Source: a virus
Length of the DNA stretch: 37,247 nucleotides
IMG/VR virus record: IMGVR_UViG_3300042465_005916
Coordinates: 1-37,247 of that record
Direction: 5' to 3' (one strand)
The translations under genes and the position numbers were made by a program. The notes beneath the pieces were generated by a model. That model saw nothing but the letters and a program-made list of their open reading frames with translations. It did no database searches and was not told the DNA's origin. Below are positions 31,686 to 36,166 of this stretch, one piece after another (position 1 is the stretch's first letter; each line of letters starts with the position of its first letter).

Positions 31686-31815
31686 CTGAAACTCAAGGCC
31701 TGCGCGCTTTAAAAATAAATCTTAAAGATTGCAAACTGTAATACCCAAATTAATACTACAAATAAATATTAATACTTTTTTAGTTTTAAATAGTCTTTAA
31801 AGTTTATGATTTTGG
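31686..31815. other. AT-rich convergent intergenic stretch
   Basis: This 130-bp stretch lies between the ends of the moron gene and the repressor gene, which converge here. It is very AT-rich and holds two copies of ATTAATACT about 20 bp apart. No clear GC hairpin with T-run is visible, so how the two transcripts end is not obvious. I see no gene in it. Confidence 0.5.
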
Positions 31816-33971: not shown

Positions 33972-34808
33972 ATGGCGGGCGATTGGATCAAGATGCGATC
34001 AAACCTTTGGGATGACCCGCGCATTGCACGCTTGGCAGACCTGACCGAAAGCTCAGAGGCTGCAGTGGTTGGTGGCTTGTATTGGCTTTGGGCCGCTGCC
34101 GATCAGCACAGCACCGATGGCATCATGCACGGCCTGTCACTCAAAGGCATCGACCGCAAGACTGGCGTGAAGGGTTTGGGGCAGGCATTGTGCGACATTG
34201 GCTGGCTGGCTGATCACCCTGAAGGCGTGCGCATCCAAAACTTTGAAGACCACAATGGAAGTAGCGCAAAGAAACGCTGCCAAACAGCAAAACGCGCCGC
34301 AAACTGCAAAGGCGGTAACGCTAAAAAGAGCAAAGAATCACAGCATGAAGGCATTGAAGGTAACGCAGAAGTAACGCTCACAGCGTTACCGGAAACAGAA
34401 AAAAGCGATCAAACAGCGTTACCCAGAGAAAGAGAAGAGAAGAGTATAAATACCCCCATACCCCCAACGGGGGCAAAAACCGAAAACGCAGCGATTGGCT
34501 TGCCGACCTGGTTGGCCACGATCAAGGCCAAAGGCGAAGACCCCATCCCGGCTGACGATCCGGTTTTTGAGTACGCCGACAGCGTGGGCATACCGCGTGA
34601 GCACCTTCGGCTGGCTTGGCGTGAGTTTCGAGAGCGCTACAGCCTGCCAGGTGCCAAGCGGTACAAAAACTGGCGCACCGTTTTTGGCAAGGCCGTGCGG
34701 GGCAATTGGTTCAAGCTCTGGCACTTTGCCGGTGACGCCTGCGCCCTGACCACCACTGGCGTGCAAGCCAAACGCGCAGCCGAAGCCAACGCATGGGTGG
34801 CAGCATGA
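33972..34808 (+). CDS. Replication initiator (O/DnaT-like)
   Basis: A 278-aa initiator. The N-terminal 105 residues (DWIKMRSNLWDDPRIARLAD through HPEGVRIQNFEDHNGSSAKK) are the winged-helix region common to a broad class of phage replication proteins. A long hydrophilic linker (about 110-175) is encoded by DNA containing repeats that look like origin iterons. The C-terminal 100 residues (DPVFEYADSVGIPREHLRLA then YKNWRTVFGKAVRGNWFKLW) match the DnaT-like DNA-binding domain. It should bind the origin within its own gene and load the DnaB-type helicase encoded next, with which it overlaps by 4 nt. The start ATG 33972 is preferred to the 15-residue longer form. Confidence 0.82.
   Translation: MAGDWIKMRSNLWDDPRIARLADLTESSEAAVVGGLYWLWAAADQHSTDGIMHGLSLKGIDRKTGVKGLGQALCDIGWLADHPEGVRIQNFEDHNGSSAKKRCQTAKRAANCKGGNAKKSKESQHEGIEGNAEVTLTALPETEKSDQTALPREREEKSINTPIPPTGAKTENAAIGLPTWLATIKAKGEDPIPADDPVFEYADSVGIPREHLRLAWREFRERYSLPGAKRYKNWRTVFGKAVRGNWFKLWHFAGDACALTTTGVQAKRAAEANAWVAA
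34314..34450. other. Candidate replication origin: iterons plus purine/AT-rich tract
   Basis: Five copies of the octamer GGTAACGC or its complement lie within 110 bp: 34314-34321, 34359-34366, 34370-34377 (AGTAACGC, one mismatch), then GCGTTACC at 34383-34390 and 34416-34423. A purine run (34424-34440) and AT-rich tataaat follow. Position inside the linker of the initiator gene and the adjoining strand-biased tract match the lambda origin inside O. Confidence 0.72.
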
Positions 34809-36166
34809 GCGCCGAAACCCTGAACAAGCTGGCCAGCCATGAGGCCGAATCGGGCATCCTCGGCGCTTTGCTGCTCGACAACAACGCGCTGGACCGTGTG
34901 AGCGACCGCCTCAAGCCCGAGCACTTTTTCAACGCCGTCAACCGCGAGGTTTACGCCGAAGTCTGCGCCCAGGTGCTGTCGGGCAAGCAGGCTGATGTGA
35001 TCACCGTTTTTCAGGCCATGGGTGGCCGCATTGGGCTGGATGACCTGAACGCCTTGGCGCAGTTTGTGCCCAGCGCTGCCAACATCCGCCGCTATGCCGA
35101 CACCGTGATCGAGCGTGCCAAGTCACGCGGCCTGCTGTCAGTGAGTGCCGAAATCACCGAACTGGCCCAAGACCACGCCAGATCCATCGAAGACCGTGTG
35201 GAAGCTGCGCAGGGCCAGCTGTCCAAGCTGATCGACGATGCGCCGCGTGACGATTGGGTGAGCGCCCACGAAGGTGCCATTGCCCACATCGACACCATCG
35301 AAGCAAGGGCCGAAGGCAAGATCACCGCATGGCCGACTGGCCTGTATGACCTGGACGAAATCCTCGAGGGTGGCATGCGCCCTGGTGAGCTGGTGGTGGT
35401 GGGTGCGCGGCCATCCATGGGCAAAACAGCCTTGGCCATGAGCATCGGCCTGCACATGGCTGCCGACTACACCGTGGGCATGCTGAGCATGGAAATGCCG
35501 CACAGCGAACTGCGCGACCGCCAAACCGCCATCCTCGGAAAAATCAGCCTGTCCACCGTCAAGCGGCCCAGCAAAGGCCTGCAGTGGGACAGCGTGGTCG
35601 ATGGCGTGGAGAAAGCCAAAAACCTGAATTGGTACGCCAGCGACCAAGGCGGACTGAACATCAACCAGGTGCGCAGCAAGGCCCGAAACCTTAAGCGCCT
35701 GCACGGCCTGAACGTGCTGATCATCGACTACATCGGCCTGATGTCGGGCTTGGATGGCAAGCAACAACGCGCCTACCAGCTGGAAGAGATCAGCCGGGGC
35801 TTGAAAAACTTGGCCAAAGAGCTGGGCATCGCCGTGCTGTGCTTGGCTCAGGTCAACCGCAAGGTCGAGGATCGGGCTGAGCACGCGCCTGTTCTGTCCG
35901 ACCTGCGCGACTCTGGCGCCATCGAGCAGGATGCCGATGTGGTCATGTTCGTTCATCGCCCCATTCAGCAAAAGCCAGATCTGCCCGAAGACTTCCGCAA
36001 CTACGCCAAGGTCACCATCGCCAAGAACCGCCAAGGCCGCTGCGGTGTGGTCAACCTCGCATACATCGGGGACCAAACCCGCTTTGACAGCTGGTCAGGC
36101 CAAGCCCCCAACGCCCGCACCGCCACTTATTCATCCAAGCCAAAAGGCTTTGGCCATGACGACTGA
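34805..36166 (+). CDS. Replicative DNA helicase (DnaB type)
   Basis: A 453-aa hexameric helicase. The N-terminal domain (HEAESGILGALLLDNNALDR) is DnaB-like. The RecA-like C-terminal domain shows Walker A GARPSMGKTALA (about residues 200-211), MLSMEMPHSELRDR, Walker B VLIIDYIGLM (about 303-312), the QVNRKVEDR region and DLRDSGAIEQDADVV with the conserved motif near 380. So the phage supplies its own helicase instead of a P-type loader. ATG 34805 overlaps the initiator stop by 4 nt; the frame from 34793 is less likely. It overlaps the next gene by 11 nt. Confidence 0.95.
   Translation: MSAETLNKLASHEAESGILGALLLDNNALDRVSDRLKPEHFFNAVNREVYAEVCAQVLSGKQADVITVFQAMGGRIGLDDLNALAQFVPSAANIRRYADTVIERAKSRGLLSVSAEITELAQDHARSIEDRVEAAQGQLSKLIDDAPRDDWVSAHEGAIAHIDTIEARAEGKITAWPTGLYDLDEILEGGMRPGELVVVGARPSMGKTALAMSIGLHMAADYTVGMLSMEMPHSELRDRQTAILGKISLSTVKRPSKGLQWDSVVDGVEKAKNLNWYASDQGGLNINQVRSKARNLKRLHGLNVLIIDYIGLMSGLDGKQQRAYQLEEISRGLKNLAKELGIAVLCLAQVNRKVEDRAEHAPVLSDLRDSGAIEQDADVVMFVHRPIQQKPDLPEDFRNYAKVTIAKNRQGRCGVVNLAYIGDQTRFDSWSGQAPNARTATYSSKPKGFGHDD

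Follow-up and report, generated by a model that had tools for sequence, protein, structure and literature searches.

A candidate replication origin inside a phrog_2509-type phage initiator gene and the conservation of its layout in relatives

Phage replication origins located inside the gene of their own initiator have been described for lambda and SPP1 (PMC7466680, PMC3349717, PMC6316719). The lambda ori in gene O, like the origins of Stx phages, lies between the parts of the gene that encode the DNA-binding and the helicase-recruiting regions of the initiator, and shows iterons, an A/purine-rich tract and a palindrome (TTCGTCAGAGAATTCTGGCGAA) in that order. Lambda carries four direct iterons of 18 to 19 bp, and gene O is followed by gene P. 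In SPP1, which belongs to another host group, oriL combines direct repeats with an AT-rich unwinding element within gene 38, the gene of the origin-binding protein (PMC6316719). An active origin, oriJ, has also been reported for the Rac prophage (PMC3945230); our literature search for its mapped position returned citations only and did not place oriJ at ydaU.

Here we describe a locus of comparable layout in the virus record IMGVR_UViG_3300042465_005916, analyzed over its 37,247 nucleotides (hereafter, the window). An initial annotation had proposed a candidate origin inside the initiator gene, and this proposal is supported by a unique repeat cluster, by codon shuffles and by conservation in relatives. 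In our reading, the linker-coding DNA of this gene is very probably an initiator-dependent theta origin, working like lambda ori and SPP1 oriL with an initiator from outside the lambda O family. The features of the locus are as follows.

33972 to 34808, + strand: initiator gene, 278 aa, phrog_2509 "replication initiation protein"
34017 to 34235, + strand: codons of the winged-helix domain, residues 16 to 88 (AlphaFold2 pLDDT about 90 to 98)
34263 to 34313, + strand: codons of the basic helix, residues 98 to 114, with putative specificity residues 101, 105, 109 and 112
34314 to 34322, + strand: iteron 1, GGTAACGCT
34359 to 34367, + strand: iteron 2, GGTAACGCA
34370 to 34378, + strand: iteron 3, AGTAACGCT, 11 bp from iteron 2
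34371 to 34389, no strand: inverted center GTAACGCT-cac-AGCGTTAC, with similar centers in many relatives
34382 to 34390, − strand: iteron 4, inverted, AGCGTTACC on the + strand
34415 to 34423, − strand: iteron 5, inverted, 33 bp from iteron 4 and abutting the purine tract
34425 to 34452, + strand: purine tract AGAGAAAGAGAAGAGAAGAG then TATAAATA, candidate unwinding element
34445 to 34452: TATAAATA
34453 to 34473, no strand: CCCCC-ATA-CCCCC-AAC-GGGGG, a C-tract/C-tract/G-tract element capable of forming a hairpin
34793 to 36166, + strand: DnaB-like replicative helicase gene, whose start may be 34805

The phrog_2509 profile matches the N-terminal part of the initiator (residues 1 to 158; E 1.1e-39). 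The best PDB fold matches of its folded domain are the winged-helix domains of CRP/Vfr, at a weak Z of 5.8, and the pLDDT of helix 98-114 reaches only about 60 to 70. In the AlphaFold2 model, a disordered linker separates the winged-helix domain and basic helix (residues 16 to 114) from a C-terminal helical domain, and the repeats lie in the DNA that encodes this linker. A search of the PDB by sequence returned no solved structure matching the phrog_2509-type initiator family, and no family match was obtained for the C-terminus of the window protein. A recognizable C-terminal DnaT domain in 9 of 77 relatives fits helicase recruitment. The likeness to lambda O suggested in the annotation holds for the layout (iterons, A/purine tract and palindrome within an initiator gene) and does not extend to the protein, since the lambda O-type family is absent from its Pfam and PHROG matches at E up to 1. 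The N-terminal similarity to the replisome organizers of Gram-positive phages (PF09681, Phage_rep_org_N) is only weak (E 0.2 over 29 N-terminal residues), and the score of 12.1 bits lies below the gathering score of 23.3, so membership is not supported.

Exact matches to GGTAACGC occur at 34314(+), 34359(+), 34383(−) and 34416(−), and AGTAACGC occurs at 34370(+). These are the five iterons, three forward and two inverted, that had been claimed, and they are the only copies of GTAACGC in the window, all inside 109 bp, when about 2.6 would be expected per 37 kb. A whole-window scan identified the array at 34314-34423 as the densest 7-mer cluster of the 37 kb and found no other 7-mer cluster of five. 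Furthermore, none of 10,000 protein-preserving codon shuffles placed the same 7-mer five times in a 130-nt stretch; the maximum was four. Compared with lambda, the sites are half-sites of 7 to 9 bp in 11-bp steps with one inversion, and the gene encodes a phrog_2509 protein and is followed by a DnaB gene. The contrast drawn earlier with the all-direct lambda iterons is valid when whole arrays are compared, but the single iteron of lambda already forms an imperfect inverted repeat (PMC7466680).

The purine-rich/AT tract reported beside the iterons is found at 34425-34444, the sole purine run of at least 17 nt on either strand of the window. The 34425-34452 region is 65% AT over 31 nt in a phage of 60% GC; the AT content of the window peaks at 31753-31795 (93% in 30 nt). 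The feature, originally given as 34314-34450, runs on past 34450, through TATAAATA, to the C/G element at 34453-34473. A GC skew check gave no clear turn at this site.

Conservation was assessed in 167 non-redundant relatives from viral contigs and bacterial genomes. The family also includes epsilon15, Rac YdaU, TL-2011b and CP2. Loss of the iterons in relatives had been named beforehand as an outcome that would speak against an origin. In the three closest relatives, whose proteins are 91 to 93% identical to the window initiator, 18 to 29 linker positions differ, but all five iterons, the tract and the C/G element are free of changes; the iterons had been fixed from the window sequence prior to this comparison. 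The layout is kept across the 167 relatives. Identical 7-mers 11 nt apart are present in 126 genes (12.2 expected from codon shuffles) and 22 nt apart in 46 (9.7 expected), and inverted 7-mer pairs also peak at phased distances. The common plan of the linker DNA starts with direct half-sites every 11 bp and passes through an inversion to half-sites of opposite orientation and then to a purine tract, with the last iteron joined through CT or CC to AGAGAAGAGAAG. A purine tract of at least 12 nt is found in 161/167 relatives, where 98.6% of the arginine codons within the tract are AGA or AGG versus 13.3% elsewhere, indicating that the DNA is held and not the peptide alone.

Among named relatives, Rac ydaU, epsilon15, TL-2011b and BUCT554 share the protein family and carry, at the same place, a purine tract directly adjoined by half-sites of the GTAACGC or GTCCGC kind. 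They differ from the window in their AGAGGAAGAGGAAGA tracts (Rac, TL-2011b and BUCT554), in a DnaC-type neighboring gene (Rac) and in an initiator C-terminus annotated as DnaT-like (epsilon15). Annotations of the family members in Rac, epsilon15 and elsewhere name them replication proteins, and DnaC or DnaB genes often adjoin them. Some individual loci deserve mention. The "HNH endonuclease" of Bordetella phage vB_BaM-IFTN4 (L554:724-1554) aligns with the initiator (query residues 66 to 268) and contains a CCCCCC-AA-CCCCCC element, and its name is probably wrong. An int-alpA RNA (RF02996) was detected upstream of another initiator relative (L062:2078-2144).

Just past the tract, 35/167 genes have a perfect stem of at least 6 bp with a TNNC loop (0.7 expected), and the reverse loop, GNNA on the upper strand, was found there in none of the 167. 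On the lower strand, these hairpins carry GNNA loops, with a C-G closing pair in 28 of 31 distinct cases and unrelated stems. An alternative form with a stem around TCACTACGTTC occurs in 10/167 genes; its lower strand reads CT-GA-AC-GTA-GT-GA-AG, which would place two putative sheared G.A pairs above a GTA triloop. In DNA, loops of the GNA and d(cGNNAg) kinds have exceptional stability. The C/G element of the window occupies the place where relatives have the GNNA/GNA hairpin. On its lower strand, the window has the GTT loop of CCCCC-AAC-GGGGG in place of GNNA or GNA, and as an ordinary perfect hairpin the element is not significant alone (p 0.46). The C-C-G tract pattern is nevertheless present in 19/167 relatives, some of them also with TNNC loops, versus 0.4 in codon shuffles, and is significant only across relatives.

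An Rfam search with the hairpin returned no family. Similar hairpins were found in other initiators. A 15-mer scan of viral contigs recovered mid-gene hairpins, and all 10 genes picked for a mid-ORF hairpin match PHROG families with replication or primosomal functions. Both hairpin forms recur in an unrelated second family of initiators, surveyed over 83 non-redundant genes, and several of these hairpins directly follow CCAACA-type tracts. In DUF1376-like initiators (L465, L468, L471, L495, L499 and other loci of the L427-L544 range), mid-gene CCAACACCAACACC tracts precede hairpins of these forms and of a third, GCGCACGC-(aga/aaa)-GCGTGCGC. We also considered whether the TTCACTACGTTCA loop is merely common. 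Among the 97 occurrences listed, of at least 97 in the scan, 71 have at least three extra complementary flanking pairs when about 1 in 64 would be expected, which argues otherwise, although the counts themselves, being lower bounds, are no measure of enrichment. The strand-specific hairpin appears to be new.

The hairpin might work in the initiator mRNA or in an antisense RNA rather than as single-stranded DNA, a reading that we regard as unlikely. Folding energy favors the lower strand in 43/43 hairpins with DNA and RNA parameters alike, a result that agrees with an RNA role and does not decide between the two. Copies of the CTTCACTACGTTCAG hairpin outside long ORFs in other phages, possibly in the 5' leaders of genes, also point in that direction. 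On the contrary, the mRNA loops read TNNC, a sequence not found among the common RNA tetraloops, and the GNNA loops of the other strand are only partly GNRA. In addition, the position of the hairpin is tied to the iterons and the tract, and the hairpin is common to two unrelated initiator families. The CTTCACTACGTTCAG copies outside long ORFs were observed in L109, L134, L098/L102, L106, L120 and L124; in some phages one contig has several of them, and their orientation is possibly opposite to the gene. In L091, L092, L108, L117, L121, L165, L173 and L196, the translated hairpin gives (S)SLRS(E/G/D), a mid-protein peptide fingerprint shared by phage initiators that are unrelated in other respects. 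This constant loop frame makes a peptide role possible, but a role of the DNA is favored by the covariation of the stems and by the sharing of exactly the same codons.

The type of iteron varies among relatives (GTCCGC in 105 genes, TAACGC in 42, GTSACGC in 7 and TAGACG in 3), and this variation follows the basic helix. Residue 105 sorts the two main types in 145/145 genes, being T or V with TAACGC and D or E with GTCCGC; residues 109, 101 and 112 are nearly as predictive. The window helix is atypical, with A at 109 and C at 112. On a tree built without the helix, which has few columns and many weak forks, residue 105 and iteron type each change 14 times. Well-supported independent pairs agree in 7/7 cases (p 0.016), whereas columns outside the helix, among those listed, agree in only about 0.3 to 1.5 of 7 pairs. 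The rule also holds in 13/13 named phages and prophages outside the set in which it was found: residues other than D/E accompany TAACG sites in Rac YdaU, TL-2011b, CP2, SAC, 673R7, CBW1004C, BUCT554, PAN70, VW-6S, ctnlZ23 and Olaya, and D/E accompanies GTCCGC sites in epsilon15 and Carin1.

This rule, which appears to be new, could reflect linkage only, with neighboring helix codons and iterons swapped together. The first iteron begins where the helix codons stop, and the 14 iteron-type switches suggest cassette exchange. However, the strong signal is confined to residues 101, 105, 109 and 112, which form one face of helix 98-114, and neighbors such as 103, 104, 106, 107 and 108 lack it, making simple linkage improbable. 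The helical period of the informative residues argues for a direct reading of the iterons by the helix, and the comparison of sequences argues that the two change together.

A second iteron array was observed near the 5' end of the gene in 77/105 GTCCGC-type relatives (at least two sites; 6.3 expected), as in L018:2011-2041 and L059:4054-4084, at gene offsets 54, 65, 78 and 100 and again with spacings of 11 and 13. Such an array, found in most relatives of this type, could be regulatory and would suit sites acting as operators for transcription or copy-number control, with replication beginning elsewhere. We consider this very improbable for the linker array. The GTAACGC type, to which the window belongs, is without a 5' array (one site in 42 genes), the abutting purine tract and the downstream hairpin would be needless for an operator, and a mid-gene array beside a helicase gene is the arrangement of lambda and SPP1. 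That the repeats are a by-product of the low-complexity linker peptide, rich in R, E and K, has almost no probability, because the sites read in the gene frame as GNA, VTL and ALP and thus not as one repeated peptide, the signal is lost in codon shuffles that keep the protein, and the tract arginines are almost all AGA.

For the initiator-dependent origin that we favor, the sites, their spacing, the tract, the hairpin loops and the helix-iteron rule come from the sequences; binding, melting, helicase loading and a role for the hairpin are what we infer. By analogy with the lambda and SPP1 origins inside initiator genes, the initiator would cover the iterons, melt the tract and deliver DnaB. 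It would bind the GTAACGC half-sites of its own gene, which at 11-bp spacing would occupy one helix face in two opposed sets, with specificity provided by basic helix 98-114 beside the winged-helix domain. The bound complex would then melt the adjoining purine tract and TATAAATA, with opening predicted at the AGAGAAGAG tract, and the C-terminal domain would recruit the DnaB helicase encoded directly downstream. Once the lower strand is melted out, the inverted repeat beyond the tract may fold on it as single-stranded DNA, and the hairpin would help to open the bubble, keep it open or mark the place of primosome assembly.

More broadly, the strand-specific, single-stranded DNA hairpin with its super-stable GNNA or GNA loop could be a general and exchangeable module of phage origins that unrelated initiator families share and a common host factor recognizes, alongside a four-residue code on one helix for the iterons, a reading that we hold tentatively and rate at slightly less than even. 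In that reading, the candidate factor would be the primosome, primase or RNA polymerase, starting or orienting the first strand.

These results provide a base-level map of a likely origin for a large group of temperate phages that has received little study and that includes the E. coli Rac prophage. The helix-iteron rule offers a direct test of how initiators shift their target yet keep their function, and it would allow the protein sequence to tell the iteron type and hence replication incompatibility. If it acts as single-stranded DNA, the hairpin would be an origin part shared across initiator families and would point to a single host step exploited by many phages.
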